DNA from: Boothiomyces macroporosus
Lineage: Eukaryota > Chytridiomycota > Chytridiomycetes > Rhizophydiales > Terramycetaceae
Direction: 5' to 3'
NCBI GenBank assembly: GCA_027604185.1
Contig: JADGKB010000156.1
Location: 1-24,871, forward strand
DNA length: 24,871 nucleotides
Below, in pieces: positions 1,303-24,566 of the stretch. Each line of letters starts with the position of its first letter. Position 1 is the first letter of the stretch. The translations under genes and the position numbers were made by a program. Under the pieces are notes generated by a model. It was not told the DNA's origin and made no database searches. It saw only the letters and a list, made by a program, of their open reading frames with translations.

Positions 1303-2175
1303 TTAATACTTTGATTTCTGAACTGTAATGATTGATTTAATCGCTTCTTGTTGAGCAACACCAACTCCAATGGACTCTAGGTACTTTGAAGCAGATCCAT
1401 ATTCATTTTCAATAAAAGAAATTGTCTTTTCCATCACTGTTGCATCACTGCCTGAAAATTCTGGTCCCAATCCAAGCTTTCCTAGTCGTTGCACTATATT
1501 ACCGTGCTCACTCTCCAACAGTCTTGCAGAGTCAGAGTATTGATTTACAATATCATCTTTTGGAACATTACAGATTAGTTGAATTAGGGCAATCGTTAAT
1601 CCAGTGCGGTCTTTTCCGGCAGAACAGTGAATTATAACAGGATAGCTATCAGGCTTAGCCAATATATCCATCATTCGCTTAATGTCTTGACCGCCACTCT
1701 TTAGAAAAGCCATATTTAACCCAAATAGCCCTTCCTTTCCTACATAGCTATGTGACAGTAGTAGCTTTTGAGCATAGAGCTTTTGTCCACGCAGCCTATA
1801 ATACAAAAAACATCTATATTAAATCGTCAATACAGTTTAACCCACCAGGAAACAGAGTACCATAGAGTATTCCTAAGTGATTTCGCGATATCAATTCTGA
1901 AAATGTTCCTCTGCGATTCAGTTTGTTCAACACTGTTTGCTGAATGCAGATTAAAATGCTGGTGAACAGACTCCTTATCTTCAGTTGCTAATGACTCTCC
2001 ACCACCTCGCAAGTCAATGATAGAATTGATTTTATGCGTTTGGAGTATTTTGGTAATGTCTGATGATGTTGCCTTGTCCAGAGTTGCAGACCGGTAAATC
2101 ATGTTGGGTTTTATTGATCTCATTAATAATTGGTTACCCCAAGGCAGCATCCCTAAAGTTATTGATTCCCTCCAT
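1303..2175 (-). CDS. Protein tyrosine/serine phosphatase (Y_phosphatase3 type)
   Basis: Three exons on the minus strand (2175-2138, 2118-1834, 1813-1303) separated by introns of 19 nt (2119-2137) and 20 nt (1814-1833) give 277 residues. The start at 2175 is chosen because it yields the family's N-terminal NFRD motif, joined by the first intron to IKPNMIYRSATL, another family hallmark. The P-loop HCSAGKDRTG lies near residues 165-174 and holds the catalytic Cys and Arg. The second intron restores an uninterrupted SWWVKLCFLYYRL stretch between the two blocks. Family members dephosphorylate phosphotyrosine and sometimes phosphoinositides in the cytoplasm; the substrate here is unknown. Without the introns this looks like two broken frames. 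It is convergent with the alginate-lyase-like gene and divergent from the small secreted gene. Confidence 0.85.
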
Positions 2176-2360
2176 AGATTTCAAAAAGTTGAGAATTAAT
2201 ATCGGCCGAGTGATTAGGAGTTTAGGGTTTCGTCTTTGATTTCCAGACAGACAGTCTTGTCAAATAGCAGGAATATCTCCGAATCCATTGTGCAATAAAA
2301 TTAATCTATTTACTTTTGTTTACTATTCATTTCAATGCTCAATTGTTTCACATTTTTTCC

Positions 2361-2759
2361 ATGAAATTCTTACTTGCCAGTTTGATGTCTTCAGCAGCAG
2401 CGTACATTACCGGAGCAGTAATGTTTTATGAACAGGATTGCCCAGCAGGAGGTCAGCTACCTCCAATATTCAACATCAAGCCAGACTCAAAAATCACACC
2501 AAAGAATGTAGAATCAATTAAATCATTGCAATGGGCATATCCAAGCACTTCATTCCAATTGCTATTCTATTTAAATGATGCCGCTACAGATCCATATGCC
2601 GTTATCACTGGCCCACCAAACCCTTCTTACTCTGGCAACCTTTGTGGGTTCCAGAACCCTAAAGGACTCCAAGTCTTATCGCTGAACGATGCTGTCATTG
2701 GAAATTCTGATCGCTTATTTATCAATGACGATTCTTACTGCAAGTTTATTCTTGTCTAG
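2361..2759 (+). CDS. Small secreted protein, paralogue of the gene at 9789
   Basis: This intronless gene encodes 132 residues. The start at 2361 opens a clear signal peptide (MKFLLASLMSSAAA); the frame extends upstream only through a non-ATG codon. I do not recognise the family. It shares with the 9789 gene an FYE..CPA motif after the signal peptide, KSLxWxYPSxSF, PYAVxTG, LCGF, and a C-terminal LFIxxDS block, so the two are clearly paralogous. Two cysteines are conserved (in the CPA and LCGF motifs) and could form a disulfide in the mature protein. AATAAA follows the stop closely (about 2767), and the ATG13 start lies only 53 nt after the stop. A secreted role is inferred; the function is unknown. 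Confidence 0.75.
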   Translation: MKFLLASLMSSAAAYITGAVMFYEQDCPAGGQLPPIFNIKPDSKITPKNVESIKSLQWAYPSTSFQLLFYLNDAATDPYAVITGPPNPSYSGNLCGFQNPKGLQVLSLNDAVIGNSDRLFINDDSYCKFILV

Positions 2760-2812
2760 AGTTAAAATAAAAAGTAAACCTTAATAATTTTGACTTCTTT
2801 CCGTCCGCAATC

Positions 2813-5261
2813 ATGGAATCGTCTACCACCACAAACCAAGAATCGAAATCAAAGGCAGATTCCTTGTTGCAGCAATTTTATTCAAAGACAGCACAAATAA
2901 TAGTTCGGTCTCGTCTTTCCTTGGAGCCAAACAACTCCAAGAGGAACAAATGGGTATGATAATTCTCATGTAGTTTAATATTGAACTTGAAGATTACGAA
3001 CCTTTGCGAGAGGAAATGAAGTTTTGGAAGGGACAGCTTGTTGCGACTGCTCAAGCACCGCCATTATTTGTAGATATTTTATTGGATATTTCGCACCTCA
3101 CGATAGCGCAGCATTTGATATTGACAAATAATTCAACAGGCAGGAAACACAGGATAAGACCTGAGGATTTGATGGGTGTAGATCCAACGGGAAGACCGAT
3201 CAGAAAGAGAAATATCTTGTTGGAAACGTGGCAATTGACATTTAGGTATTTGCTTATTGAGATAGACCTGAAATTGGTGAGCAGATACCCGAGTTACCCC
3301 TCGTTTACAAGAAATGTATTATATTCTTTAGATCTTTATACAGCTTCTTGCGTCTGATGCCCTCATTCAAGCTGTGCAAGAGGATCGGAAAGATGGATTC
3401 TACTTGCAAAATAATCTATAGAGTGGGCTCTTCAAGGACTAATTCTCCATATGACGCGGGGTTAGGTATAGATTTTTTTAAACAGATCAACTTCATTCTT
3501 CCAATGATATGCGGTTAGGGTTATCTGAATCGGATTTTGAAAACCTTGAAACTCCATTAGGGTAGCTATAGTTAATGGTAGTGTTTTTCATTTACATGTC
3601 ACGTATAGATTGGATTGTGATTTTGATATTGATGATTCAGAAAGCGCTCTGGATAGATTCACTGATCTGGAACCACACTTTTTTCATGTCGAAGAAATTT
3701 CCAAACGAAGGTCTAGCTTGGCATCTCTACAGGTTTCAGAACGAGATTCCATTACAAGGTTGGGAAGGCATTCGCCAAGTACTGATTTTGGAAAAAGTAG
3801 AATGGGATCTATCCCCAAATCTAGAGAAGGTGTTTCTATTCCAAATAGAAGCCGATGGAAAGATACTTCATTTGGAAAAAACTCGTTATCATCAGTTTCA
3901 CCCGATACTCAATTCCGGATAGGTACTGCACCTAGCAGAGGATACCAGTACGATCAAAGGTCGTTAAATTCTCCAAACTTTGTTCCTTTCACACCACCGA
4001 CATCGGATCCTGTTATTCCATTTAACAATGACTGGCTCTTTAGATTTCCAACTGAACTACCTCCATTCTCAACGCCAGCTACTGAATCAGAATCTACCAA
4101 ATTTATAGTAAACAAGCCAGAATTTATAAGCGAGTCGCCTCCTTTTGCGCTTTCTAAGCCAGACGTAATTCGTATTAACTGTAGTCTGAAGATTTAAACA
4201 GATCTCTTTCAATAGTTCGTAGACCATCCTACATATTTCCTACAAATTCTCCAACACAAATTGGTGCTACTCCTCCCCATCCTCCATTATTATTTACACC
4301 ATCTTCATCATTTAGACAAGCATCATTAAGAAGTCGAACTTCACCACCACCATTATTATTGAGACAGAATTATGAAAGCAGTCATAATTCTCCCGATGTA
4401 GAACATTTTCTCAGCTCAATTGATCAAGCAAGAGCATTAAAAATCACTTCCGGTACAGAAAAAGTACAACAGTCAATCTTGGATGGCTCAAAAGGTGAAT
4501 CTTCTGTTCAAATTGAAGTAATCTTGATTAACCAAGAATGCTCTTAGTAAATTCAGGATTCTACAAAAGGACAATTCAGCATTTACAAAAAAAGTTGATT
4601 TTATGATATCCAAGGATGATCCACCATCCGAGCCGCCAAAAGGCGCACCAAAAGTATTTATATTTAATATTAGCAACCATCTTCAACTGGTTTAATTTTG
4701 GAAAAGCCTTTTCATTCTGTTTGGTCGCCAAATGTGGGTGAAACTACTCCAGTAAACCCCAAGCCAGTCTCAAACTCTTGGACCACCAGAGATACAAGAG
4801 TAGAAACGTTTGATTGGAGGGAAGGAAATAAAGCGCCATTCAATTGGAACGCTCAATCCAATAAACCCTCTGACATCGAGCCATTTCAGTATGGCCCTGA
4901 ACAAAAGCCATTTGATTACCCTCAAGAAGAAAAGCCTTTTGAATATCCCGAGCAAAAGCCCTACAATTGGGAGAACAAGGAAAAGCCCTTTGACTGGGAA
5001 AAAAAGGAGGAATACAAATGGAATCAAACCGAACAAAACTTTGAATGGAACCAAAAAAAGAATTCAGATTGGGAAAAGAATGATTCTACACTATCAGCTA
5101 CTCGCACAAAATCAAAACGAGGTAGACAGCGTTCAGTCACCTCTGATTGGCAACAAAGGGAACCTGTGCAGCTCGAAAATCTAAGTCGATCAGAAAGCTT
5201 CAGAGATAGCAAGTACGACGAAGACGAGTTAGTTTTCAACATGTCTGAATTAGACTTGTAA
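2813..5261 (+). CDS. ATG13: Autophagy-related protein 13
   Basis: Regulatory subunit of the Atg1 kinase complex that starts autophagosome formation. Eight exons (2813-2953, 2974-3245, 3266-3465, 3486-3561, 3582-4164, 4185-4517, 4537-4653, 4674-5261) with seven introns of 19-20 nt encode 769 residues. The N-terminal HORMA domain (about residues 8-260) shows FYSKTAQIIVRSR, NKWFNIELED, LLETWQL, PLVYKKCIIFFRSLYSFLR and ETPLG...VTYRLDCDF, each completed by intron removal. A Ser/Pro-rich disordered middle follows. The extreme C-terminus (DEDELVFNMSEL) matches the fungal ATG13 tail. Residues about 620-709 form an unusual aromatic repeat (see separate entry). It starts 53 nt after a secreted-protein gene and ends 41 nt before the GCN20 start. 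Confidence 0.93.
4809..5078 (+). repeat. Aromatic-tripeptide repeat region inside ATG13
   Basis: About 90 residues near the C-terminus contain ten spaced units of the form aromatic/Ser-x-aromatic: FDW, FNW, FQY, FDY, FEY, YNW, FDW, YKW, FEW and SDW. They are separated by 4-11 polar, charged residues and are often preceded by KP (EKPFDW, QKPFDY). The repeat is degenerate at DNA level, so it is not a recent tandem expansion. It sits where other ATG13 proteins carry disordered Atg1- and Atg17-binding segments. Confidence 0.8.
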
Positions 5262-5302: not shown

Positions 5303-7517
5303 ATGAGTAAGCCAAAAGAACTGCTCACAAAAATCGCAAAGAACTTGAACCCCGACCTCCTCGCATACGTAATCAATCATTAATAAGGCTTTGGGTTACT
5401 TGGAAGACGACACTAGCGATTTGTCCTACTCTTCAATTTACGAATTCATTCAACCAATATTAGAAGAAGTCGATGTTCCTGATAGCGATATTCAGATGCT
5501 TTGTAAAGAATTGGCAAGGGATGAACAGGAAGATGAAGGTGCAATTGAATTGAGCGAAAAGATCCAAATGCATGCCAGCATGTCAGAGACAATTATTTTC
5601 CAAAAGAAAGTTGGAGATATCAGACATGGTTATCAAACTTAACCTTAGGAATGTCTAGTAGAGGTCCGCAGCAATCTACAGTTGATTTGAAGAAATTGCG
5701 AAATGCAGAGCGCAAAATTGAAGAGAAGAGGAAGCAACGTGAATTCAATGGGGAAATTATTCCAGAGTGGAATCCTAATGTCGCACCTTCGATGATCGTC
5801 AATCAAGCAAAACAGAATATCTCTGCTGACTCGAGATCAAAGGATATCAAATTAGAGTACTTTTGTCTAATCATAGTGATTTTGATATTCAGTTTGCTGG
5901 GAAAAAGATTCTCCTCAATGCTAGTTTGCTACTAGCAAATGGCAGGAGATATGGGTTGGTTGGAAAGAACGGTGTTGGTAAATCCACACTGTTGAGAGCA
6001 ATTGGAAGTAGAGAACTAGGCATTCCGCAACACATCAAAGTACTTCACGTAGAACAGGAAATCGTTGGAGATGACACTCCAGCACTGCAATCAGTCTTGA
6101 AGGCGGATACGGAAAGAGAATCGCTTTTGGAGGAAGAAGTCAAACTCAACCAAAAATTAAACAAAAACTCTACTTCAATTGAGGAAAGTGCCACCATTAC
6201 CACAAGATTGAAATATATTTATGGTAGACTGGAAGAGCTTGAAAGCGATACTGCTGAATCAAGGGCCTCTGCAATCTTGTCTGGTTTAGGATTCACTGTT
6301 GCACAGCAAAGTGCTGCTACAAAGACTTTTTCTGGTGGTTGGAAGATGAGATTGGCTTTGGCAAGAGCAATTTTCTGCAAGCCTGACTTGCTACTTGCGG
6401 ATGAAGTCACCAACTATCTTGATTTCCCTGCGGTTGTCTGGCTTGAAAAGTGTTTTGAAAACTGGGAAGGTACAATTCTTGTTGTGTCCCACGACAGGTC
6501 TTTCTTGGACACTGTCGCTACAGATATTTTACATTTGCAGAATAACCAACTTGATGCATATCGTGGAAACTTTTCTTACTTTGTTTCCACAAGAGCAGAA
6601 AAGAGGAGAAACCTTATCAGAGAATATGAATCACAACTTCAGTATAGACAGCACTTGCAAGACTTTATTGATAGGTGGAGATATAATGCAAAAAGAGCAG
6701 GTAGCTCATAACTAACATAGCTCTCGCTCAAAGTAAGATCAAGATTTTGGAAAAGCTGCCTCCACTTGTTGAACCGCCAAAAGATGATATGGAAGGTCTT
6801 GGTGAAGGTCAAGATGGGTTATACTTTAGATTCCCTGATCCAGAAAAGTTGTCGCCTCCAATTCTTCAGATGGACGAGGTGACTTTTGGCTACACAAAAG
6901 AAAGAACTATTTTGAAGGGCGTATCATTTGATGTACAAATGGATAGCAAGATTGCAATCGTTGGTCCTAATGGAGCTGGTAAATCCACTCTTATCCACTT
7001 ATTGACTGGTGAAAACCCTCCATCATCAGGCATTTGCCACCGTCATGGACGTCTTCGTTTAGCTCTTTTCTCTCAGCACCACGTTGATCAATTGGTTCTG
7101 GCAAACAGCTCTGTACAATTCTTGCAAGGCAAATTCCCAGGTATGGTTGAGGAAGAATACAGAAAGATTTTGGGAAGATTTGGACTGACTGGAATGACTG
7201 CGATGCAACCTATTGGTACTTTGTCTGGAGGTCAAAAATCTAGAGTAGTGTTTGCATGGATGTCAATGATGAACCCCCACGTAATTGTTCTCGACGAACC
7301 GACTTCACACTTGGACATGGACTCTATCGACGCTCTCAGTAACGCCCTTAAAGAATTTAGAGGTGGTATTGCTATTGTTTCTCACGACCAAAGATTCTTG
7401 GATTCAGTTTGTAAAGAAGTATGGATTTGTAATGGAGGAACACTGACCAAATTTGGAGGAAAAGACGGCGATCCAAGAGGAGTGGTAGAACAGTACAAGG
7501 CTTCATTAGTTGGTTAG
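5303..7517 (+). CDS. GCN20: ABC-F ATPase of the GCN20/ABCF3 type
   Basis: Soluble twin-ATPase translation factor; in yeast Gcn20 works with Gcn1 on the ribosome to activate Gcn2. Five exons (5303-5368, 5388-5628, 5649-5856, 5877-6700, 6721-7517) with introns of 19, 20, 20 and 20 nt encode 711 residues, the usual length. There is no membrane segment. NBD1 has Walker A GKNGVGKST (about 201-209), signature FSGGWKMR (about 323) and DEVTN (about 347); NBD2 has GPNGAGKST (about 528-536), LSGGQKSR (about 614) and LDEPTSHLD (about 638). The linker is restored as NAKRAALAQSKIKILEKLP by removing intron 6701-6720. The second intron has a GTT donor, the only one of 35 not starting GTA. NBD1 carries Val where DEPTN has Pro (residue 349). 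It is convergent with TRMT2, with 21 nt between stops. Confidence 0.93.
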
Positions 7518-7538: not shown

Positions 7539-9504
7539 TTATACTGTTGGTTCATTTGGTTGATCATTGGATACTTCATCAACTTGGCTTACTTCTGTAT
7601 CTTTAATCTCTGCCTTTTTAGGCTCTTGTCGAACCAACTCGACAATAATTTCACAATGGTTGGTGTGTGGGAACAAGTCAAGCGGGATTGCCTGCACTGG
7701 GATGAATGGATGTCCTTTAAACTTGTTTGAAGTAGGCCGGGCTAAACTAACATTAGTAAAAATTACTCTATCAAATTCTGGGTGGATTGCTTCAAATCAC
7801 AAGCGACAAATACAACATGCTTTAACGTTGGGATGTCACGAATTGATTTGATGACAGAGTAGTAAACGCCAGCTCTTGGAGGATCAAGAACAGCTACCAC
7901 TACATCATCCCTGGAAACATGATTTTTGAACACATCATGCATGGCATCTTCTACTTTACTGCAAATGTATGTGATATTGGTCACTCCATTTGCCGCTGCG
8001 TTTCTTTTGGCATCTTCGATTGCTTCTGCGACCAATTCTACACCAATAACCTTTTTGAAATGTTTAGCCATAGTAATTCCAATAGTACCAGTGCCACAAC
8101 ATAAATCTAGCAACACTGCCCCAGCGTTTGGAGAATTTGCTTTTGCCTTTTCAGCTGCTTGTAGCCCCAACTCACGGATTTTATCGTACAATAATTCAGT
8201 GGCAGTTGGATTGACTTGGAAAAAGGAAGTAGGTGAAATTTGAAACTTGAAGCCCAGCAATTCTTCCGTAACAAACTTTGTCCCGTGCAACACTTCCATT
8301 GGAGCCTCTTCCTTGATACCATTAAAGTCGTCATTGTATTCCTGGATGAAAAAGAACTTACTTGAATCAATAGTGAATCCAAAGAGATTGAATGTTCACT
8401 GAATTCTTTCAAAAGTGTATCCTTGATTGATTTCTTTTCCTTTGCAATTGTTTCAGAGTCCAGTTCGTTTGTCTTTAGCTGAACCATAACTAAACACTGG
8501 CCAGATGCCAAAGTACGTACCAAAGCCAATCTGTAGACTCCTGATTTGGATACACGATCATAAACATCATGCTCAGATTGTTGAACATATTTTTCCAAAA
8601 TATTTGCAATATCTTTGGCTTTTTTAGACACGTTCAAACAAGAGTTTGGATTTAGTACGGTAGTAATGCCATTTTTGTATAAACCTAATAGGAAACCACA
8701 AGTTTTGTTTCCATCCATGTCTCTACCAAAGGTAAACTCACATTTGGTTCTGTAACCTTCTGTTTCTGGTGAAGCAATGGTATCTAGAATCTTGCACGGT
8801 AAGCCATCAAATTCCTTTCGTGCACCATTCAACCAATCGAGTTGTTCCAAAGCCCTCTGCTCAGTAGTCATACTTTTAATTCTTTCCAACGGAGATATTG
8901 AATCATCAACTGGTGGCGGTTGAGCTTTGTAGTTCTTTTTTGGAAAGAACTTTGCCAATGATTTGGCATAGTTTGTCAATGTCTTTTTGAAATCCTCCTT
9001 CTTCATTTGCAATTGTTCTTCATAAGGAACTTTCCACAAAGGGGTGACTTGGTCAGCAATCCGTTCCTCTGGCGATCTGCCATCATCAACGAATTCTTTT
9101 GGGGCTGGGGCTTCCCTCTGCTGTACTACATTTTCTTTGGTAAACAACTTTTTTCCTTTGAATTCAACACCGTCCAGTTTGCCTTTGGCAATGCTGTAGT
9201 CATTGTTGTTTTCAAAGGAAATGACTGCGTATGTCCACTTTGGCGCAATTTTTATCTTTGTGTATTTGACTTGATGGGTTTCAAGTATTTTAAGCACATC
9301 CTTTTTGTAAGCATGTCTCCCAAGTCCTCCCAATTTCAATTTCATTACTCCGTCTTTCTCTTGCTGCTCTGCTTCTTGCCCTTCCGGTTGTTCTGCTTCG
9401 TGCTCTTCCGGTTGTTCAGCTTCAATATCTTGATGTTCTTGGTGTTCAGTTTTTAATTTCTTTGTTGCTTCCAACTCTGAATCCTCTTCCTTTCTTTTTT
9501 GCAT
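7539..9504 (-). CDS. TRMT2A: TRMT2-type tRNA (uracil-5-)-methyltransferase with N-terminal RRM
   Basis: Three exons (9504-8362, 8341-7767, 7746-7539) with two 20-nt introns (8342-8361, 7747-7766) give 641 residues. Members of this RumA/TRMT2 family methylate U54 in the T-loop of tRNA using S-adenosylmethionine. An acidic, Glu/Gln-rich N-terminus (repeated EHEAEQPEG-like units) is followed by an RRM-like domain (about 53-130, KLKLGGLGRHAYKKD). SAM motif I reads LLDLCCGTGTIGI and motif IV LDPPRAGVY. The catalytic Cys is retained in VACD, though most relatives have SCNP there. The C-terminal block KGHPFIPVQAIPLDLFPHTNHCE matches TRMT2A after intron removal. TRMT2A versus TRMT2B orthology is inferred from the RRM. 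It runs convergent to GCN20 and divergent from the 9789 gene. Confidence 0.88.
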
Positions 9505-9788: not shown

Positions 9789-10190
9789 ATGCTTTCCTCT
9801 CTTCTAGCCTTGATTTCAACCACTATTGCTGCACCAATTGTTGGCTCAGTTTCGTTTTATGAAGGTAGCTGTCCAGCACCAACAGAAGGCCCTAGATTTT
9901 ACAAAACTGCACCAGGATCTGTGATCACACCAAGCAATGCTGCTTCTGTAAAATCCTTAGAATGGGAATACCCAAGCTCTTCTTTCCGTCTGTCGTTCTA
10001 TGTGGATAGCCATGCTTCATCCCCATATGCTGTTGTTACAGGATTAGACCACCCTACCTTCCAAGGCAAGCTTTGCGGATTCTCCGAACCCCAGGGATTA
10101 AATGTCATTCATCTTGACAAGACAGTAGTAGGCAGCTCAAAGAACCTATTCATCAGCCCAGATTCATTTGTAAAAGTTGAAACTGCCTAA
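9789..10190 (+). CDS. Small secreted protein, paralogue of the gene at 2361
   Basis: An intronless gene of 133 residues with a signal peptide (MLSSLLALISTTIAAP). I do not recognise the family. It aligns along its whole mature length with the 2361 gene: FYEGSCPAP, KSLEWEYPSSSF, PYAVVTG, KLCGF and LFISPDS. The two cysteines are conserved, and no other motif indicates catalysis. A TATA box is 32 nt upstream. AATAAA follows the stop by a few bases, and the CDKAL1 start lies only 42 nt after the stop. Both copies thus precede an unrelated housekeeping gene at very short distance. An extracellular role is inferred. Confidence 0.78.
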   Translation: MLSSLLALISTTIAAPIVGSVSFYEGSCPAPTEGPRFYKTAPGSVITPSNAASVKSLEWEYPSSSFRLSFYVDSHASSPYAVVTGLDHPTFQGKLCGFSEPQGLNVIHLDKTVVGSSKNLFISPDSFVKVETA

Positions 10191-13576: not shown

Positions 13577-14357
13577 ATGTCAATTCGCTCCGTAGTCTTT
13601 GAAGAAACTAAACCGCAAGCAATTGGTAAGCTCAAATTAATTTGAAGCTTCAAAAATTCATGAACAAAAGTACTTTTTTGTTATTCATACAGACGATGGA
13701 AAGGCACACACTGTACAATATCATGAAGGTGTTGATGGAAAGCCCGGTCAAGTTAAAATTATTGATGCCGCTACTAAATTCCTTGAAATGGTAAAGGCCT
13801 ATGAATTCGATGTTCACCCAGACGTTGCTTATTCCTGGAAGGATTTTGAAAAGTGGGTAATGAACCACTCTGGATATAACAACACCGTCTCTAACCAGTC
13901 CCACAACCAATTTACTTTTGTGGATGTGTGTGTTGCTAAACTTACCAGCAAGTGCATGAGACCAATCACTGTTGAAAAAGTTGCTTCGGAAATCCCTCTA
14001 ACTGTTCACCCTGCTGCTGCTAGTGATAAGGCATTATTTGAAAAGTTCAAGGTAATACTTTTCTAATGCAAGCACGATGTTGAACGCAAAGTGCAAATCA
14101 TTCAAAAGAGAGACACTGTCCACAAGACTTCCGTTGGTGCTGAAGCGCATATTTCTGCTTTTGTGGTAGAGCAAGCTGCTGAGCATAAAGTTCAATACGG
14201 CACAATCCACTTTGCAAAGGTTAACATTGGTAAAGTATATTTGCATGTTCGTTGCCATCAATTCCACAATGGAGAAGCTGAATTCCATTCAATTGACACT
14301 ACCCGATATTCATGTGTTTGGAAAAAGCAAGACCCACTTGTCTTTTTCGACTATTAA
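13577..14357 (+). CDS. Conserved protein of unknown family, copy A
   Basis: Three exons (13577-13625, 13648-14051, 14073-14357) with introns of 22 and 21 nt encode 245 residues. I do not recognise the family. It is paralogous to the 15668 gene along its full length, with shared blocks such as KAYEFDVHPDV, NHSGY.NT, SHNQ.TFVDVCVA, TSKCMRP, EHKVQYGTIHFAK, NIGKVYLHVRCHQFHN and IDTTRYSCVWKK. There is no signal peptide or membrane segment, so it is probably cytosolic. Alternating hydrophobic residues suggest a mostly beta fold. Four cysteines in the core (DVCV, SKCM, VRCH, YSCV) are kept in both copies. Both introns sit at the same positions and phases as in copy B. The TATA box is 33 nt upstream. 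The function is unknown. Confidence 0.8.
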
Positions 14358-15667: not shown

Positions 15668-16439
15668 ATGTTTATTGCCAGTGTTGTTTATCAAGAGACC
15701 AAACCGCACAGTATTGGTAAATGATACTCAACTAGCTAAACCATACGATCAAAAGTACTATTTCGTTGTTCACACTGATGACGGAACCGCTAGAACAGTC
15801 CAGTATCATGGCGAAGAGGGAAAACCCGGTCAAGTAAAGATCGTTGACGGAGCAACCAAATCTCTTGAAATGGTAAAAGCATACGAATTCGATGTTCATC
15901 CAGATGTTGGTTATCCATGGAAAGAGTTTGAAAAATGGGTAATTAACCACTCTGGTTATCACAACACTATCCCGACGCAATCGCACAACCAATATACGTT
16001 TGTGGATGTTTGCGTTGCAAGAATCACCAGTAAATGCATGCGGCCAGTTACTATTGAACGAGCGGCGTTTGAGATTCCGTTATCTGTTCACACAGCAACA
16101 CCCGCAGAAAAGGCACTCTTTGAAAAATTCAAAGTAGACTTTGATTAATTCTAGCATGACGTTGAACACAAGGTCCATTTAATTCAACAACGCGATCTAG
16201 TTCATAACACTTTAGTCGGCGCTGATGCCCAAATTACTAGCTTTGTGGTTGAAGAAGCTGCCGAACACAAAGTACAATATGGAACTATTCACTTTGCAAA
16301 GATTAATATTGGAAAAGTGTATTTGCATGTTCGCTGTCATCAGTTCCACAATCGAGAAGCAGAGTTTCACTCCATTGACACTACCCGATATTCGTGCGTT
16401 TGGAAAAAGCACGATCCATTAGTTTACTTTGACTATTAA
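15668..16439 (+). CDS. Conserved protein of unknown family, copy B
   Basis: Three exons (15668-15716, 15736-16133, 16155-16439) with introns of 19 and 21 nt encode 243 residues. It is a paralogue of the 13577 gene with very similar sequence from the first exon to the shared C-terminal end (DP.V.FDY). The first intron interrupts the same codon after Ile as in copy A but is 19 rather than 22 nt. The second sits after the shared FEKFK block and is 21 nt in both. Intron sequences have diverged while coding blocks have not, so the duplication is not recent and the protein is under constraint. No signal peptide, membrane segment or known catalytic motif is seen. The function is unknown. Confidence 0.8.
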
Positions 16440-16687: not shown

Positions 16688-18564
16688 ATGCAACTATCAT
16701 TGCTCTTGGGTAGCATATTGTGCTCTCCTGTCCAAAAAGACATCAAAAAAACTGAATTCTATTATCCAAAGGCTTCAATGAAATCGTTTACCCAATCAAA
16801 CTCGACTGCCGCAAGCAAAATCTCAATTGACGATAACGGCCTTGGCTATCTGACTAATACCTTGAATATTAATCAAAACCAGTTCCAAGTATCTCATTCG
16901 TATAGTTCAAAGAACGGTTTATCTCATCTACACGGCGTTCATTTGGTAAACGGTGTTCCAGTAGATAACCATAATGCAGGCATTCATCTAATGAATGCTC
17001 AGCCAGTATGTATGTATACTTCGTTTAACCAACTTTTACTCGCACCAAATACAACACTAGATATGACTCCTCCCACCGTTACTACTCTTCAATTCTTTGA
17101 TTTGTCTCTAAAACTATTAAACTTGTTTGCTTCTGGCAATACAGTTACGGTGAAAGATGCAGTTGCAAAGATATCACTCGATGATGCTGTCCATTCAGCT
17201 GAATCAGCACTTGGAATCAAAAGGGATCAAGTTGATCACAAGATGGTATATATCGAAACGCCAGAAAAGGTCCTTGTTTATGCCTACCAGTTTCAACTGC
17301 GAGATGACGCTTCTCAGCAATGGGTACAGGTTTCAGTTGATTCGGAAACAGGAAACATTGTACAGCTGGTAGACTATGTGCATTACTATGATGCATCTTA
17401 CCGCGTAATTCCATTTCCTGTAAAGAATCCATTGTATGGTTGGGCCAAAGTCCAAGAAAAGAATGAAGCTTATTTGTTTGCCTCGCCCAAAGGATGGCAA
17501 AGTGATGGCAATTCCAACTACACTGATACTCAAGGCAATAACGTTGGATCCATGGTAGCTCAAAAATACGTTGCAAGCCAATCTTTAGATTTCACTCATA
17601 ACTGGGATCCTACACAAGATCCCACGTTCCCAGATAACCAAAGGGCATCTGCAATCCAAACCTTTTACAGTAAGATAGATTAATATTAGTTGCAAATGTA
17701 ATGCATGATATCCTTTATGAATTTGGATTTAATGAAGTTTCTGGTAACTTTCAAAACAATAACTATGGTCGAGGAGGAGCGGAAGGAGATCGAGTGACAA
17801 TATACAATCAAGCAGGTGGAATTGATAATGCGAATTTTGCAACTCCTCCAGATGGCCAGTCCGGTGTGATGAACATGTACATCTATGATAAATCAAAACC
17901 TAAACGAGATGGGTCTTTAGATGTTGGTATTCCTATGCATGAATACACTCATGGGCTCAGCAATAGATTAACTGGGGGAAACAGACAAGCAAACTGTTTG
18001 TCAACTCTTCAGTCAAGAGCTATGGGCGAAGGTATGAGGAATCTAATATTAGGTTGGAGTGACACTGTGGCAATGTTCTTGCTTCGAACCGAAAACGACA
18101 CGATAGACACTGACTATGTACATTCAGATTACGCAATGAACACTCCAAAAGGCTCTAGAACGTTTCCATATTCTACAAACATGGCTAGAAACCCCCTAAC
18201 CTTCAATGATTTGAATAATAGAACTGAAGTGCACGCTATGGGAGAAATTTGGGCAGCAACCTTGAATGAAGTATACTGGAATTTGGTGCAAAGGTTGGGA
18301 TTCACGCCAAACTGGTACAACTATCTTCAAATCAAAGGAAATATAGTCGCACTGAATATTGTTGTAAATGGGATGAAAATCCAGCCTTGCAATCCAACTT
18401 ATTTACAAGCGAGAAACGCCATCATTTCGGCTGCAAGCTACATGTACAGTGGGCTGTATGACTGTGAGGTTTGGAAAGGATTTGCTAAACGAGGTATGGG
18501 ATACGCGGCGTCAGATACAAGTGGATTCCATGCCGATTTCTCAGTAGCTCCACAATGCAAATAA
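16688..18564 (+). CDS. Fungalysin, secreted M36 metallopeptidase
   Basis: Extracellular zinc endopeptidase made as a proenzyme. Three exons (16688-17669, 17690-18031, 18053-18564) with introns of 20 and 21 nt encode 611 residues, the family's usual size. The start at 16688 begins a signal peptide (MQLSLLLGSILCSP). An FTP-like propeptide follows, with HGVHLVNGVPVDNHNAG and a YTSFN stretch. The catalytic domain has MHDILYEFGFNE, NNANFATPPDGQSG-like sequence, HEYTHG (zinc ligands His411, His415) and GEGWSD (third ligand Glu441). C-terminal QPCNPTYLQARNAII and WKGFAKRGMG blocks are typical. The second intron (18032-18052) is in frame and stop-free, splitting GEG from WSD. AATAAA overlaps the stop. 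In chytrids, fungalysins are often expanded; here one copy is seen. Confidence 0.94.
18032..18052 (+). other. In-frame 21-nt intron without stop codon (fungalysin intron 2)
   Basis: Runs from GTATGA to ATTAG with CTAATATTAG at its 3' end. Retention would insert seven residues immediately after the zinc-ligand glutamate in GEGWSD; removal gives the exact family motif. Confidence 0.87.
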
Positions 18565-18565: not shown

Positions 18566-18967
18566 GATTGTGTAAAATTCTAAATTTTCAGGGGTAACTT
18601 CACTTAATTCGAGTGGACGCTCAGAGAAAATTTGAATGAGGTGTTGTTGAGTATAGACTTGGACAGATAACTGGACGCTGGGACTACTGCCAAATACCAA
18701 AATTGGAACAAAAACAGAATTGTTGCGCAGATCTCACAATATTCCGTGCAAAATGCGTTGATGCTGCATTGAGTTGACTAAGGTATGCCACTAGAGACAG
18801 TTTCGTTGTCTGGATGGCACCATATCCTGCCAATATTGGGTGAAGGGAAAAACTCTCGGAGAAATGCAAGTGAAAATCGCAGAAATATGCGGATAAATCG
18901 CTCATTGGTGGATAATTGCGAGCAGTATAAAAACAAGAACACCATGAATCTATCATCAAACAATCAA
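18565..18967. other. Intergenic region and promoter before the NmrA-like gene
   Basis: About 400 nt without a supported gene; the antisense frames here show no family features. It contains the perfect 10-bp palindrome CCAATATTGG (about 18830), a short hairpin AGACA/TGTCT (about 18795-18811), the octamer TGGACGCT twice (near 18613 and 18671), and a TATA box at 18926. It most likely serves as promoter for the downstream gene. Confidence 0.4.
18926..18933 (+). promoter_or_regulatory. TATA box of the NmrA-like gene
   Basis: TATAAAAA lies 42 nt before the ATG at 18968 and 18 nt before an in-frame ATG at 18944. The spacing favours 18968, which also gives the compact NmrA start. Confidence 0.55.
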
Positions 18968-19837
18968 ATGGCATTTGAAACAGTCGCAGTCGTAGGAGCT
19001 ACCGGAAACCTTGGCGTGTCCATCGCGAAGGCAGTCATTGCAAAGAAGCTCAAAGTAAAGATCGTTACAAGACAAGACACACTTGCGTCCAAGAAGGAGC
19101 TCTTGGATGAGTTCAAGTCGCACGGCGCCGAGATTGTCGTCGCCGACTTCAAGAGCATCGACTCACTCGCAGCTGCACTCAAGGGCGTGCAGGTGGTGAT
19201 CTCGGCAACAGGTGGGGCAGCGCTGGGCGAGCAGATCCAGCTTATAGACGCGGCCAAGAAAGCTGGTGTGTCTCGCTTCTACCCGTCCGAGTACGGAATA
19301 GACGACGTCGAGTATCCAACAAAGCACCCAATTATCGACGCCAAGGTCAGCATTCGCAAGCACGCAGAGGCTGCAGGGCTGCAAACAGTGGTTGCGTTCA
19401 CTGGATTCTTTGCCGAGTGGGCGCTCTCTCCCTTCTACGCCGTAGACTTTGCAACCAGCACCATTGAAATCGTAGGAGACGGAAACGCAAAGATTGGAGG
19501 ATGGTCGATCCCCCAAATCGGCCAGGTGGTCGCCGAATCAATCAACCACGCAACCACAAGCAAAACTGACAAGATTATCTACCTCAGGGCACAAGGGCTG
19601 GTGTTCACGTACAACGAGTTGCTTGCCGAACACGAGAAGCAGACTGGAACAAAGTGGACCAAAAAGTACATTACCATCGACGAAGCCAAAAAGCGACTCG
19701 ACGGAGCAGATCCATATGCCGAGTTTGGCACATACCTCCGCACTTGGCAAGCACAGGGCTACGGTCTGTCCAAGGAGAACCACGCAAAAGAGTTTAACAT
19801 TACTCCAACCACATTTGCCCAAATCTTCAAGAAGTAA
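18968..19837 (+). CDS. NmrA-like / isoflavone-reductase-like NAD(P)-binding protein
   Basis: An intronless gene encoding 289 residues. An N-terminal Rossmann motif, VVGATGNLGVSIAKA, binds NAD(P), and TRQDT after the second strand fits an NADP-type pocket. FYPSEYG and KVSIRKHAE-like helices match the NmrA/isoflavone reductase group of atypical short-chain dehydrogenases. The family includes redox-sensing regulators and small-molecule reductases; the role here cannot be assigned. Codons end in G or C far more often than in neighbouring genes, visible in 19080-19760, which suggests high expression or horizontal origin. An in-frame ATG at 18944 would add eight residues. It is convergent with uL22m, with 18 nt between stops. 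Confidence 0.85.
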   Translation: MAFETVAVVGATGNLGVSIAKAVIAKKLKVKIVTRQDTLASKKELLDEFKSHGAEIVVADFKSIDSLAAALKGVQVVISATGGAALGEQIQLIDAAKKAGVSRFYPSEYGIDDVEYPTKHPIIDAKVSIRKHAEAAGLQTVVAFTGFFAEWALSPFYAVDFATSTIEIVGDGNAKIGGWSIPQIGQVVAESINHATTSKTDKIIYLRAQGLVFTYNELLAEHEKQTGTKWTKKYITIDEAKKRLDGADPYAEFGTYLRTWQAQGYGLSKENHAKEFNITPTTFAQIFKK

Positions 19838-19855
19838 CAAATATTTTCTTTTTAT

Positions 19856-20619
19856 TCAACAATAAACTGGTTTGATTGGACGTTTACTCCTCTTTTGTTG
19901 ATATAGCTGTTCAGCAGTTTCAGTTGTATCCTTTTTTCTATCACGTAATCTTGCACGCAACCATTCTAAAGGATCATTGGTTCTCTTTTGGAAACCTTGT
20001 GATCTTTCTTGGAGAACAAATTCCAATTTGCAGACTAGTGGATGTGGGGTTGCGCCGTATCTACCTCTACCACGCAGATATTTCTTTACGAACTTGTTTT
20101 GCAAGCCATGCTTGGTGTTCTTTACGTATGCATCAGCTACAATTAAGAGTGAATACCAATATAGGTCTTTTTCAAGTCAAATCCTTCTTCTTTTGCTCTC
20201 ACGATAACCTCGTTCAAAGTCTCTTTGAGCTTGTGAGATATGCGGTGTTGGTTCCATGATAATTGAAGGAGCGCATCGTCCAATGACAACCCTTTGATAT
20301 CACCCAAAGGCTGGATGAATCTTGTGTGTTCAATGTGGACAAAATTCTTGAAGGTCTTTAATATTTTTGATCCTCCGTCTTTTTCCAGTCTGTAAAGGAA
20401 GCCTTTTCCCCACTTTGCGTTGAGATTTATATCCCCTTCCTCCACTTGAATTGGCTCTGGTTCGCTCTTGATTGACTGTTTGATTTGCTCAATGTGCGCT
20501 GCTGCATTAGGGTTCACTGGCCCGTCCGTTTCCAAAATATTTTTGATTTTTTCATACACCCTTGGAGGAGTAGTGTTGGTTCCTTTAACTCTGGTGAAAA
20601 ATCGAACTTGTTTAAACAT
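19856..20619 (-). CDS. MRPL22: Mitochondrial large-subunit ribosomal protein uL22m
   Basis: Two exons (20619-20157, 20136-19856) with one 20-nt intron (20137-20156) encode 247 residues. The intron joins KKTYI to ADAYVKNTKHG. The core GDIKGLSLDDALLQLSWNQHR, the helix LNEVIVRAKEEGFDL and the C-terminal KKYLRGRGRYGATPHP hairpin are those of uL22, whose extended loop lines the ribosomal exit tunnel. The basic, hydroxylated N-terminus (MFKQVRFFTRVKG) fits a mitochondrial presequence, and the C-terminal extension (RTNDPLEWLRARLRDRKK) is as seen in mitochondrial forms. Its start codon is 37 bp from that of COA6 on the other strand. Its stop is 18 nt from that of the NmrA-like gene. Confidence 0.9.
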
Positions 20620-20656: not shown

Positions 20657-21019
20657 ATGGGTTTAAATTTGCCTCCAACAAAGGACGACAGGAAAAAATG
20701 CTGGGCTGCAAAGGACGCTTACTTTAAATGCCTGGATGAAAATAATCTGTGGCTGGAGGGCCTTCAACCAACCACGCATGAGGAGATTACCCAGATTGAC
20801 ACAACGAATATCGTGATACAAAAGAAGAATTCAAAAAACAGCCATCTATTTACATGTTCGCAAGCCAGGGAAATGTTTGAAAGTAGCTGCTTGCCTTCAT
20901 GGTATAAGCATTTCAGCATGTTGCGTGTACAGGATTTACAAAAAAAACACTGGGTGGGAAAAATAGAGAATGAAAAAGTTAAAGACGATGGGTTTTGGGA
21001 ACGCATGAAGGAAAAATAA
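20657..21019 (+). CDS. COA6: Cytochrome c oxidase assembly factor 6 (COA6-like)
   Basis: An intronless gene encoding 120 residues. A CX9C motif (Cys15, Cys25: CWAAKDAYFKC) followed by LDENN, and a CX10C motif (Cys67, Cys78: CSQAREMFESSC) followed by P.WYKHF, are diagnostic of COA6. COA6 is an intermembrane-space protein assisting copper delivery to COX2 during complex IV assembly. The segment between the two cysteine pairs is 41 residues here against about 10 in human COA6. No 19-23-nt intron can account for the extra sequence, so it appears to be a real insertion. Twin disulfides and MIA40 import are expected from the family. AATAAA overlaps the stop. It is divergent from uL22m, and convergent with the VIT1 gene at 19 nt. 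Confidence 0.88.
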   Translation: MGLNLPPTKDDRKKCWAAKDAYFKCLDENNLWLEGLQPTTHEEITQIDTTNIVIQKKNSKNSHLFTCSQAREMFESSCLPSWYKHFSMLRVQDLQKKHWVGKIENEKVKDDGFWERMKEK

Positions 21020-21020
21020 A
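21015..21020 (+). promoter_or_regulatory. AATAAA polyadenylation signal overlapping the COA6 stop
   Basis: The TAA stop (21017-21019) lies inside AATAAA. The use as a signal is inferred. Confidence 0.5.
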
Positions 21021-21038
21021 TTGGAATGAAATCAGTTG

Positions 21039-21891
21039 TTAAGGTTTTGGTAATAGATTCGCGATTCCAAAAGCAGCACCTGCTGCCAATGCTCCGATAA
21101 ACATCATTTGTAATGCACCTACAAATGGTCTCTTATTTCCTAGCAATATTGATTTTACATAACCAAAAATGAAAAGCGTAGCAATTGTGACAATCGCGGA
21201 CACCAGCAATGCTGTTCTAGCATGCTCTATTAATGCGTAAGGAACCAACGGGACTACTCCACCACAGAAATAAGAAGCGCCAATGGTTAGCGCGCTAATC
21301 TATATTAAATCCAAGTACCCATGACCGACTTGCCTCTGGCTTTTCCAACCCAAGTTCAAATTTCATCATAAAATCTACCCATACTTCTTTGTCACTGTGT
21401 AGTTTCTCCAAAAGCGGTTCCAAATGATCACTGCTAATTCCATATGGTTCAAATATTTCATAAATTTCCTGAGTCTCTTTTTCTGGCATTTGGTCAACCT
21501 CCATCAACTCTCTCTTTCTTTCAGAATCATAATGCTCGATTTCAGATAATCCTGCTAAAAACCCACCTAGTGCCATTGAGATTGAACCTGCTACCACCTC
21601 TGCAACACCTGCAGTTAGCACTATCCGAGAGGAATCTAGGGTAGCTAATCCTGCAGCCAAGGCAAACGGCACAGTTAAACCATCAGACAAACCAACAATG
21701 ATATCTCGAACAACTTCTGCGGAGCCAAAATGTGGTTCAGCATGTGAGTTACACACTGAAACTCCATCGTGTATTATTAAAACTTGATCTTCGCGTATAT
21801 TTGTTGATGAACCCTGCGGAGTTGTTTCTGGAGTAGAGTTTTCTGATATTGGAAATGATTGCAGTAATGTAGGTGTGGGTTTAGCAGCCAT
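21039..21891 (-). CDS. CCC1: VIT1/CCC1-family vacuolar iron/manganese transporter
   Basis: Two exons (21891-21319, 21299-21039) with one 19-nt intron (21300-21318) encode 277 residues. The family moves Fe2+ or Mn2+ into the vacuole in exchange for protons. Transmembrane helix 1 has DIIVGLSDGLTVPFALAAGL and helix 2 GVAEVVAGSISMALGGFLAG, both family signatures. A cytoplasmic Glu/Met-rich segment (ERKRELMEVDQMPEKETQE, DFMMKFELGLE) matches the metal-binding domain of VIT1. The intron joins SRSW to ISALTIGASYFCGG, and three further hydrophobic helices follow. An N-terminal Ser/Thr/Pro-rich region of about 75 residues precedes the first helix. The start at 21891 is the first ATG before this region that does not run into the divergent neighbour. 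Confidence 0.92.
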
Positions 21892-22084
21892 ATCAATGCT
21901 TGCAAAAAAACGCGGAAATCTCAGCAATGCATAACCATGGTTTGATAGGAGACCGCTTACGTCAAAATATAAGATATTGTTTAATATTTCTTTGTTTACT
22001 TTTTTGTGGTAAATGCAAATTACAAATTCATTGCTGCCAGATTCACATGCTAACCAATTATCCTCTTTCCTGGATTTGTGTATA

Positions 22085-23047
22085 ATGATAGTCGCTGAAG
22101 AAAGCATTTGCGCACTACCGCTAAATTTGACAATCACCTCTCAAAAAGATCTCCAAGACCTACAAAGAATAAAATCAAAGCAGAATTTAAAGCACCAGAT
22201 GATCATCTTGGGGACAGTGTATACCTTTCTTTCAAAGATTATTAAAGAATTGTACGTGCGGCTGCCCGATGCCGGAATTAAAGAAACGTTTATCAAAGAG
22301 TGCAGCAGATGGTTAGTACAGCGAGTGACAGGGGAATTTTACTTGTACAAAGATCGCCAAGATGGCACTTTGGTGGTATCTGAAGATTTATCGCGCGTAT
22401 ATTTGGTCTTGGGGTTCACCAAACCACTAGGAAAGATGCTTCCATTGCCAATCAAAGTAAGAATGACGATACTCCCTTACAAAGAACACTTGTCATACGA
22501 TCGAACAATTATCCCAGTATCACCAGTTTCGCTGAAGAAACAAGCTGAAATTAAAAAAGTGGTTGAAAAGGCAGCAGTAGATGGCTCTCTGATTACCAGA
22601 TTTGATTCAATTGATCATACCAAAATATTAGAACCAAAGCAAAACACGGTCAAAATTTCTCAAAGGGATACACAATTGATGTCCGAACTGAAACCATTGC
22701 TCTTTGGGAAAATAGACCCAAATGAAACTTGGGTATGGAAAAGGTTTGGTATTTCATTGGCTGAAAACCCAAACAGATTAATAAGCTTGATTAATAACAA
22801 GGGCCAAGTACTCATGAATTTCCCAATGATGAAACTTGATCCTTGCATTCATGATGTGCTATCTACCATATTGTCTGGTATTAAAGTTGCAAATGTATCA
22901 CGTATAGCAAAAACTATGGCTGTTGACTATGAGCCACTTGTAGACCCATTAAACAAGCTTTTTGAAGAAACTGGAATCAGTTTTAGTTTGTATGAAATTG
23001 CATCACCAGAAGAAACATTTGCGGCAAATTATTTCAAGGAAAATTAG
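22085..23047 (+). CDS. Unrecognised 320-residue protein
   Basis: A single open frame without evident introns; the start at 22085 is the in-frame ATG nearest the conserved-looking body. I do not recognise the family. It has no signal peptide or membrane helix and looks soluble and globular. An N-terminal helical part includes IKECSRWLVQRVTGEFYLYKD; then come a beta-rich part (GTLVVSEDLSRVYLVLGFT and KVRMTILPY), a Lys/Glu-rich linker (KKQAEIKKVVEKA), and a helical C-terminal part. Codon use is like the neighbours', which supports a real gene. It is divergent from the VIT1 gene (193 nt between starts, with CCAAT near 22053) and convergent with CEP44 (94 nt between stops). Confidence 0.72.
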   Translation: MIVAEESICALPLNLTITSQKDLQDLQRIKSKQNLKHQMIILGTVYTFLSKIIKELYVRLPDAGIKETFIKECSRWLVQRVTGEFYLYKDRQDGTLVVSEDLSRVYLVLGFTKPLGKMLPLPIKVRMTILPYKEHLSYDRTIIPVSPVSLKKQAEIKKVVEKAAVDGSLITRFDSIDHTKILEPKQNTVKISQRDTQLMSELKPLLFGKIDPNETWVWKRFGISLAENPNRLISLINNKGQVLMNFPMMKLDPCIHDVLSTILSGIKVANVSRIAKTMAVDYEPLVDPLNKLFEETGISFSLYEIASPEETFAANYFKEN

Positions 23048-23141
23048 ATTTATTTTCGAAGAGATTTCGATAGTAACAGTCTGGCTTCTTTAAGTTTTAA
23101 TGAAACTGATTTTATGTGTTTCTGTGTGTCCTATTATTAAT

Positions 23142-24566
23142 TCAATTTACTCTTAAATCTGGAGTGCTTGTCTTTCTAATTACACTCTGCCGTAAAGCTA
23201 TGTCGTCGGATGGTGTATATCGCTTTTCGTATTGATTAACTAACTCGGCAGATTTGTGAGAACCTCCGTTTGTTACTGTATGCTTATGGTCTAATTGGGG
23301 CCATTTATTTACAGTTGACGTAGGATTGTTACGGAAACTAACAGAAATGTCAGACTCGGGTGTTATTGCAGGCTGAGGAATGAATTTAGGGGTCACTGAT
23401 ATAGAAGCACTTGCAGGTTGCGGCGTAAGTATTTCTGCAGTTGAATGGTTAGTGTTTTCTGCAAGAATTCCTTGCAATAATTTAAATGAGTTTTCTAATT
23501 CGGCAACTTTACTTCTAACGGCCTCTAATTCCGCCATTAACAACTTTTGCTGTTCATTAGACTCTTTCAGACTTTCTTCTAGCTGCTGCACCCGATCTGG
23601 CTCTGGTGTTTTCGCTCTTGTAGCAAAGTCCTGGAACAGGACTGTTCTTTTAGATGGAGAGCTTTTCAAACTACTTTTAGATGGTGAATTGGATTTTGAT
23701 CGGGGAATGTGTGAAATAATTTCAGGATATACAGCCTTGGATTCATATTCATCAAATCTGGGTGTATTTCTAGACTCAATCGTCCAAGAAGCAACTATTT
23801 CGTTCTGATGAACATCCATAATTGGCGTTATTGATCTGTATGATAAATCAGCAGATATCGTTCTTGTTTTTCGATCACTTGAAAATAATTGTTGGGTTGG
23901 ACTCCTACTATTAAAAGACGGAGATATCCTTTTTGCTTCTAGCGGATTATAGCTGTACGAATCTTTAAACTCCATATCATCAATATTTTCTCTGGGAATA
24001 TCCATCAGTGAATCATCCACACTGACAGACTCGTTGATTTCATTTGGGTGAGGGGCTGGATTTATCACTATAGCTTCTTGATGGTTTGTGATTGGCTTTG
24101 GGGTCTCTTTGTTGATTTGCTTCAGAGGTACACGCTGTTTCTCCCTGTTAAATCTCATGAATTCTTGTCTCTTTTCTTTAGCTAGCTTGATTGTATCCGT
24201 AACTAGTATACACTTTCTTTCCGCAAATCCTTTTGAGAAGAACTGGTCCCTAGATATTTTTGGTTTGTAATTGAAAACATCCCGCAATGCTAAATAAAGA
24301 AGAAGGTACCGGAATATATCGCTTCCATGAACCGCTTATCTCGCTTTCCATAAAGATCATAGTTTTGCTCAGAGAAATAGTTTGCCAATAGGGGCGAGTA
24401 TTCCAGGAATATATAGTGAAACAGCGGGAGAAAACAAACAGGATCGCCTTTGGATATTCTACATTAGCAGCAAGTACCCTGCAATACTGAACGGTCCGTT
24501 ATACTTGATTGTCTTTAGCTCTGATTCAAGGATGGCGATATTGTTTTTCAAGTCGCCCGTCGCCAT
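23142..24566 (-). CDS. CEP44: Centrosomal protein CEP44
   Basis: Three exons (24566-24478, 24458-24310, 24289-23142) with introns of 19 nt (24459-24477) and 20 nt (24290-24309) encode 461 residues. In animals CEP44 binds centriolar microtubules and is needed for centriole-to-centrosome conversion. The N-terminal CEP44 domain (residues 1 to about 125) reads MATGDLKNNI, then KGDPVCFLPLFHY, then DKRFMEAIYSALRDVFNYKP and GFAERK, each part on a different exon and in the family's order. A Ser/Pro-rich basic region (SPSKSSLKSSPSKR) and one coiled coil (about 312-355, RVQQLEESLKES...LEAVRSKVAELE) follow. The rest is disordered and lineage-specific. An open plus-strand frame at 24382-24849 is a shadow of these exons. 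Confidence 0.92.

Follow-up and report, generated by a model that had tools for sequence, protein, structure and literature searches.

Introns of 19–23 nucleotides appear to make up the detectable coding intron population of the chytrid Boothiomyces macroporosus

The stretch of DNA analysed here, called the window below, comprises 24,871 nucleotides (nt) of the chytrid fungus Boothiomyces macroporosus (assembly GCA_027604185.1, contig JADGKB010000156.1, positions 1 to 24,871 of the forward strand). Twelve of its genes carry putative spliceosomal introns of 19–23 nt, and these introns are the subject of this report. We reconstructed them independently of an earlier reading of the bare sequence (the original prediction), which had proposed ultra-short introns throughout this genome, and our totals agree with it exactly: the 12 genes hold 35 introns, of which 34 start with GTA and 34 end with AG, and no longer intron is required in any of these genes. 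The modal length was 20 nt (18 introns), followed by 19 nt (10), 21 nt (4), 22 nt (2) and 23 nt (1). The exceptional start is the GTT at 5629–5648 (ABCF3 intron 2), and the exceptional end is the TG at 12667–12686 (DMC1 intron 7). The genes and introns, with the evidence that places each of them, are as follows.

1303–2102, minus strand: tyrosine-phosphatase-like gene (Y_phosphatase3), 1 intron; Pfam match
1814–1833, minus: its intron, 20 nt; within the Pfam match
2813–5261, plus: ATG13-like gene, 7 introns; gene model and homologues
2954–2973, plus: ATG13 intron 1, 20 nt; Kappamyces protein passes without a gap
3246–3265, plus: ATG13 intron 2, 20 nt; Globomyces and Kappamyces pass, Terramyces model gapped at the junction
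3466–3485, plus: ATG13 intron 3, 20 nt; homologue alignment
3562–3581, plus: ATG13 intron 4, 20 nt; homologue alignment
4165–4184, plus: ATG13 intron 5, 20 nt; gene finder and homologue alignment
4518–4536, plus: ATG13 intron 6, 19 nt; gene finder and homologue alignment
4654–4673, plus: ATG13 intron 7, 20 nt; gene finder, outside the six of seven ATG13 junctions backed by homology
5303–7517, plus: ABCF3/GCN20-like gene, 4 introns; Pfam and homologues
5369–5387, plus: ABCF3 intron 1, 19 nt; gene finder and homologue alignment
5629–5648, plus: ABCF3 intron 2, 20 nt, GTT start; gene finder and homologue alignment
5857–5876, plus: ABCF3 intron 3, 20 nt; gene finder and homologue alignment
6701–6720, plus: ABCF3 intron 4, 20 nt; gene finder and homologue alignment
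7539–9504, minus: TRM2/TrmA-like gene, 2 introns; gene model and profile
8342–8361, minus: TRM2 intron 1, 20 nt; gene finder, weak homology
7747–7766, minus: TRM2 intron 2, 20 nt; gene finder, weak homology
10233–12042, plus: CDKAL1-like methylthiotransferase gene, 2 introns; Pfam and homologues
10400–10418, plus: CDKAL1 intron 1, 19 nt; gene finder and homologue alignment
11330–11350, plus: CDKAL1 intron 2, 21 nt, without an in-frame stop; ICGFPTE aligned to IVGFPGE
12209–13386, plus: DMC1-like gene, 8 introns, two very short internal exons (11 and 23 nt); homologues
12264–12283, plus: DMC1 intron 1, 20 nt; gene finder, Globomyces passes without a gap
12295–12313, plus: DMC1 intron 2, 19 nt; gene finder and homologue alignment
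12392–12410, plus: DMC1 intron 3, 19 nt; gene finder and homologue alignment
12434–12452, plus: DMC1 intron 4, 19 nt; gene finder and homologue alignment
12512–12530, plus: DMC1 intron 5, 19 nt; homologue alignment
12594–12615, plus: DMC1 intron 6, 22 nt; homologue alignment
12667–12686, plus: DMC1 intron 7, 20 nt, TG end instead of AG; homologue alignment
13008–13030, plus: DMC1 intron 8, 23 nt; homologues, likewise spliced out in the public protein model
13577–14357, plus: paralogue 1, 2 introns; gene model and paralogue comparison
13626–13647, plus: paralogue 1 intron 1, 22 nt; paralogue comparison
14052–14072, plus: paralogue 1 intron 2, 21 nt; gene finder and paralogue comparison
15668–16439, plus: paralogue 2, 2 introns with positions and phases as in paralogue 1; paralogue comparison
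15717–15735, plus: paralogue 2 intron 1, 19 nt; gene finder and paralogue comparison
16134–16154, plus: paralogue 2 intron 2, 21 nt; gene finder and paralogue comparison
16688–18564, plus: M36 metallopeptidase gene, 2 introns; profile and homologues
17670–17689, plus: M36 intron 1, 20 nt; gene finder and homologue alignment
18032–18052, plus: M36 intron 2, 21 nt, no stop; removal gives MGEGWSD as in homologues, missed by the gene finder
19856–20619, minus: ribosomal L22-family gene (product probably mitochondrial), 1 intron; Pfam
20137–20156, minus: L22 intron, 20 nt; gene finder, within the Pfam match
21039–21891, minus: VIT1/CCC1-like gene, 1 intron; Pfam
21300–21318, minus: VIT1 intron, 19 nt; gene finder, within the Pfam match
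23050–24566, minus: CEP44-like gene, 3 introns; Pfam
24459–24477, minus: CEP44 intron 1, 19 nt; gene finder, within the Pfam match
24290–24309, minus: CEP44 intron 2, 20 nt; gene finder, within the Pfam match
23131–23150, minus: CEP44 intron 3, 20 nt; gene finder, beyond the Pfam match

At least one homologous protein passes 22 of the 35 junctions without a gap (ABCF3 4/4, DMC1 8/8, ATG13 6/7, CDKAL1 2/2, M36 2/2). Five further junctions lie inside Pfam matches, four are placed by the paralogue pair, and four are weak (both in TRM2, the last in ATG13 and the last in CEP44), with frame and motif only or weak homology as their evidence. After splicing, the ABCF3/GCN20-like product matches that of Terramyces sp. 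JEL0728 (Rhizophydiales, Chytridiomycota) with 96% identity along its entire length, and it shows 80% identity over 88% with Globomyces and 71% with Kappamyces. In the paralogue pair, the three exons are 65%, 73% and 78% identical, and the introns match in 12/22 and 15/22 aligned columns, intron 1 being 22 nt long in one copy and 19 nt in the other. A Pfam scan of paralogue 2, the member of the pair that was scanned, returned no match.

The gene at 12209–13386 reads like RAD51, an identity we rejected when protein comparison pointed to DMC1. The deposited B. macroporosus DMC1 protein covers 221 of the 338 residues of our model and is 100% identical to residues 118–338. It begins three residues beyond the junction of the TG-ending intron 7, a junction that homologues pass exactly; the TG may be allelic, a base error or a genuine splice site. 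This case raised the possibility of further introns ending in TG, but such ends showed no enrichment (15 observed versus 14.3 expected in the sample described below). Two internal DMC1 exons, of 11 nt (12284–12294) and 23 nt (12411–12433), are flanked by ultra-short introns; of the 150 modelled internal exons, whose median length is 208 nt, no others are shorter than 30 nt.

The wider analysis covered the whole genome (15.2 Mb in 216 contigs) for motif searches, and a sample of 224,871 bases, made up of the window plus 20 further 10-kb stretches, for gene finding and scans. Genome-wide, the strict pattern GTAAN{7,8}TAAYN{2,3}AG gave 6,289 matches versus 747 for its reversed control, and a further motif comparison gave 782 versus 236. 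We then used a frame-based gene finder whose first run allowed any GT..AG gap of 10–150 nt at equal cost. With these flat lengths, 48 of 127 introns fell at 19–23 nt, versus 5–10 there for seven decoy dinucleotide pairs; with a signal model and a flat length distribution up to 250 nt, 137 of 209 did so, while three decoys gave 5, 5 and 14. When the sample was held out by halves with full training, one half yielded 23 introns at 19–23 nt versus 0–2 for four decoys, and the other yielded 5 versus 0. The strict pattern fits 86 of the 260 modelled introns, which extrapolates from a biased sample to roughly 17,000 introns in the genome. The density in the gene models, 1.66 introns per kb of coding sequence, is inflated because most sampled stretches were picked for motif matches, whereas the genome-wide counts are unaffected. 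For two chytrids, a mean of 3.93 introns per kb of coding sequence is given in an excerpt of PMC8476143. On contigs C2, C3 and C20, matches recur within the same contig at offsets of ~42.6, 21.6 and 45.1 kb, which may reflect segmental or assembly duplication.

The short introns form a single length class. A frame-independent scan of the sample for GTA..TAAYN3AG gave 51, 59 and 11 matches at lengths of 20, 21 and 22 nt over a background near 4–5, with nothing comparable at 23–59 nt or in the mean for 60–119 nt, and frame-free GTA..TAAY..AG pairs had their sole peak at 19–22 nt. Stretching the strict pattern to N{25,55} gave 5,900 matches genome-wide versus 10,642 for the reversed control, or 95 per spacing combination where the sample predicts 99.5 and 104.7, which is background level. 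Ultra-short introns could nevertheless coexist with longer ones hidden from these methods, for instance in untranslated regions or with other motifs: 72 gene-finder introns in the signal-model run lay outside 18–23 nt, and only coding regions were modelled. We consider such a mixed population improbable. Three decoy donors produced 163–177 calls each, nearly all outside 19–23 nt, and the longer calls in the two hold-out halves (24 and 17) did not exceed those of the decoys (27–52 and 14–22). No long intron was needed in the 12 window genes, and pairs of the TAAY-type motif showed no clear excess over the product expectation in any of five length bands spanning 24–400 nt (138 observed versus 155 expected, 177 versus 194, 379 versus 388, 998 versus 970, and 1,881 versus 1,939).

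Within this one class of ultra-short introns, the internal layout is close to fixed. In most introns the putative branch adenosine occupies position 14 or 15 and is followed by a tail of 5 or 6 nt; combining branch 14/15 with tail 5/6 yields four cells of 55, 51, 49 and 59 matches, with ~5 expected in each. A branch at position 16 adds 10 and 11 matches, and a tail of 4 at position 15 adds 15, while position 13 holds 14 matches over nine combinations versus ~30 expected, none of the 14 being a called intron. The lengths of 19, 20 and 21 nt thus arise mostly by adding two binary spacers, in a ratio of about 1:2:1. These positions revise the original prediction, which had placed the branch adenosine 10–13 nt from the 5′ splice site and the end of its motif 3–6 nt before the AG: among 194 introns with TAAY, the adenosine is at position 14 or 15 in 169, and the motif ends 2 or 3 nt before the AG in 173. 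In the sample, GT, A at position 3 and AG are each enriched 11-fold, and TAAC and TAAT at the fixed spacing 17-fold and 11-fold; a one-base displacement of GT or AG could account for the other enriched dinucleotides (TA at the 5′ end, xA and Gx types at the 3′ end). An A occupies position 3 in 95% of introns and position 4 in 56%; at position 5, T (47%) is commoner than G (18%). The preceding exon sequence tends toward A A G, and the content of guanine plus cytosine (GC) is 29.5% in introns and 39.9% in coding sequence. Many of the 30 inspected introns lacking TAAY contain TGAY or TAAA-like motifs.

This regularity bears on the possibility that the segments arose through errors in sequencing or assembly, or that the genes are decaying pseudogenes. 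Intron 12667–12686, which lacks AG, could indeed be a base error; errors or decay would nonetheless have to produce one motif at a fixed spacing, enriched genome-wide, with 168 of the 214 strict matches in the sample lying in sense orientation within gene models and only 4 antisense. Moreover, once the segments are removed, the conserved proteins read through exactly, and we regard this explanation as exceedingly improbable.

A different account would attribute the intron lengths to surveillance, that is, to selection against multiple-of-three introns without a stop, as has reportedly been proposed for Paramecium, whose introns are 18–33 nt long. An in-frame stop is present in 64 of the 67 multiple-of-three introns called by the gene finder, and the deficit of stopless introns looked strong until it proved to be largely a detection bias of the gene finder, which inflates this count. 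Among 44 strict 21-nt sense matches in gene models, 10 are stopless (chance matches included; 3 such matches are antisense). The 21-nt class is not depleted against 1:2:1, and the phases of its strict matches (22, 14, 8) resemble those of the rest (114, 96, 50). Surveillance is an unlikely determinant of intron length.

The original prediction had called for inspection of the splicing machinery, with attention to possible changes in U2, U6, SF1 and U2AF. A search for the small nuclear RNAs (snRNAs) U1, U2 and U6 found one U1, two U2 copies and U6, and no change at their recognition sites. The 5′ end of U1 is ATACTTACCTG, the canonical recognition sequence; both U2 copies carry GTGTAGTATC (canonical branch recognition), the U2 recognition site GUGUAGUAUC is intact in 2/2 copies, and the TAAY branch motif is complementary to the U2 GUAGUA; U6 carries the canonical ACAGAGA. 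In their donor and branch motifs, the introns resemble the major (U2) type rather than U12. A shared box similar in sequence to TTAAAATGAAA lies just downstream of both U2 genes and the U1 gene, and a TATAAATA-like box precedes all three, by eye a common promoter and 3′ box. Profile searches of the genome detected SF1 over its cut-off, with helix-hairpin, KH domain and zinc knuckles, as well as Slu7 and Prp18, both over cut-off. A U2AF2-like protein with three RNA-recognition motifs, the best of 25 matches to the U2AF2 profile, is present below the cut-off. The SF1, U2AF2-like and Slu7 gene models themselves carry introns of 19–24 nt, the 24-nt one in SF1 being a candidate.

Segments that are kept in the messenger RNA and skipped in translation, or DNA elements that are cut out of the genome, are known elsewhere, and such non-splicing mechanisms could apply here insofar as the introns of B. 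macroporosus are known from genomic sequence alone. The GT..AG ends, the complementarity of the branch motif to the U2 recognition sequence, and the presence in the genome of U1, U2, U6, SF1, Slu7 and Prp18 make them very improbable. Overall, the 22 homologue-crossed junctions, the genome-wide motif, the single length class and the canonical U1, U2 and U6 sites support the proposal of ultra-short spliceosomal introns throughout this fungal nuclear genome. We estimate a probability of about 0.94 that these are U2-type spliceosomal introns and that essentially the whole detectable coding intron population measures 19–23 nt.

Several observations weigh against this reading or weaken its support. 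U1 scored 68.8, just below the Rfam cut-off of 69.5; the U2AF2-like gene, searched exon by exon, scored 230.7 against a curated cut-off of 310.3, and the same profile also gave sub-threshold matches in 2 of 14 bacterial control genomes. Seventeen of the 20 stretches of 10 kb (all on contigs 1–4) hold matches from an initial motif listing, most having been chosen for them. The hold-out half with only 5 introns has little power, and a first, cruder hold-out (3 of 49 and 3 of 37 introns at 19–23 nt, decoys 0–3) was too weak a test. The gene finder misses stopless multiple-of-three introns, such as M36 intron 2 and eight 21-nt motif matches of this kind in called exons. TAAY is absent from 66 of the 260 called introns, some of which may be false, one DMC1 intron ends in TG, and the 100–200 nt band of motif pairs slightly exceeds expectation. 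Slu7 and Prp18, present here, were not found in the ciliate Stentor according to an excerpt of PMC9505925. Finally, an adenosine at positions 10 and 11 totals 45 and 43 pairs versus ~30 expected. Of these 88 pairs, 13 are called introns of normal length with a second, upstream TAAY, so that the branch is ambiguous for a few introns, and 10 overlap called introns; we regard the lower wall at position 14 as genuine, though not perfectly clean.

If these introns are removed by ordinary two-step splicing, each would release a lariat ring of 14–15 nt with a tail of 5–6 nt. Recognition would probably proceed by intron definition, exon definition being unlikely at DMC1 because of its internal exons of 11 and 23 nt. 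U1 usually pairs with positions of about −3 to +6 and U2 with about 9–15, and because these extents would leave ~3 nt between the two footprints, mutual exclusion or a rapid handoff is expected; U1 is predicted to pass the 5′ splice site on to U6 before U2 docks or while it does so. The lack of the usual G at position 5 (18%) fits a weaker dependence on outer U1 pairing. Most likely, longer ancestral introns were compacted until they reached the shortest spacing that this spliceosome uses. A bolder proposal, which we advance tentatively and rate somewhat below even odds, is that the spliceosome has been reset to a rigid ruler, with the adenosine of nearly every intron at 14/15, AG 5/6 nt beyond, a wall at 14 and a non-textbook early assembly, while the snRNA sites, Slu7 and Prp18 were kept. 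Under this proposal, U1 and U2 would be unable to sit fully together on such introns, and the nuclear genomes of this chytrid family (Terramycetaceae) may have the shortest introns of any fungi.

Four observations concern individual genes of the window. The public Terramyces ATG13 model (600 amino acids) is missing the first exon together with residues at several junctions, as would happen if the gene caller had passed over short introns. Two small genes at 2385–2759 and 9789–10190 bracket the block from ATG13 to TRM2; their products are similar by eye and have secretion-signal-like starts. The CDKAL1-like methylthiotransferase (10233–12042) has a C-terminal hydrophobic segment, in a fungus, and we know of no such enzyme in Dikarya. 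An NmrA-like gene at 18785–19837, modelled as intronless, has a GC content of ~50% amid ~40%, a possible recent transfer.

Boothiomyces is a culturable saprotroph, and its introns offer a natural system, near the yeast models, for probing the minimum spacing of the spliceosome and how little RNA splicing needs. A search of open-licence literature, with subscription papers outside its scope and hence no proof of novelty, returned no report of introns this size in a chytrid; fungal introns of ~20 nt are likewise absent from the available parts of PMC8476143 and PMC11649378. As stated in an excerpt of PMC10639083, that survey excluded introns below 30 bp (base pairs) in all species and is blind to such introns. 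Automatic gene models suffer from them too, the public DMC1 and Terramyces ATG13 proteins being examples. Some of these introns, such as the 23-nt one in DMC1, are already implied by public protein models, and so are partly in databases even if undescribed.

In the excerpts on which the following comparison draws, the other genome-wide cases of introns of ~20 nt or less come from ciliates, reduced parasites and relic nuclei, and B. macroporosus apparently provides an independent, fungal example of a phenomenon already known, distinguished by its own geometry and with introns close to the smallest known. The original prediction named nucleomorphs and heterotrichs as comparable, a list to which mikrocytids, Encephalitozoon cuniculi and Paramecium/Nyctotherus should be added. 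Chlorarachniophyte nucleomorphs have numerous introns of similar length and narrow range (18–21 bp, >800 in about 300 genes; PMC10245619), in a relic endosymbiont nucleus rather than a 15-Mb fungal genome with an extrapolated total of 15,000 or more. Mikrocytid introns are likewise uniform with conserved motifs, but measure 16–17 bp in M. mackini and P. canceri, number 224 in M. mackini and are served by a reduced parasite spliceosome (PMC10245619). Paramecium and Nyctotherus also have short introns only, of around 25 bp (PMC5014332), and E. cuniculi, a fungal relative, has very short introns with strict motifs, but only 37 of them, spanning 22–76 nt (PMC3629993).

The heterotrich Stentor coeruleus, as described in part of PMC9505925, shares with B. 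macroporosus a uniform intron length, a conserved GUA start, a fixed branch adenosine, a 5-nt tail and conserved U1, U2 and U6 sites. Its introns of 15–16 nt, with the adenosine at 10–11, also make the earlier description of the present introns as near the physical minimum an overstatement. Stentor lacks a strong branch consensus, in contrast to the clear TAAY at 14–15 here. Loss of Slu7 and Prp18 as an adaptation common to both is ruled out, since both are encoded over cut-off in B. macroporosus, whose otherwise canonical set of tested splicing parts separates intron size from the loss of second-step factors. Because a 5-nt tail goes together with a ring of 10–11 nt in Stentor, the tail may be the common limit and the ring the adjustable part; if the ruler proposal holds, a minimum of ~5 nt after the branch would be common to both lineages, with the ring set at 10–11 nt in Stentor and 14–15 nt here.

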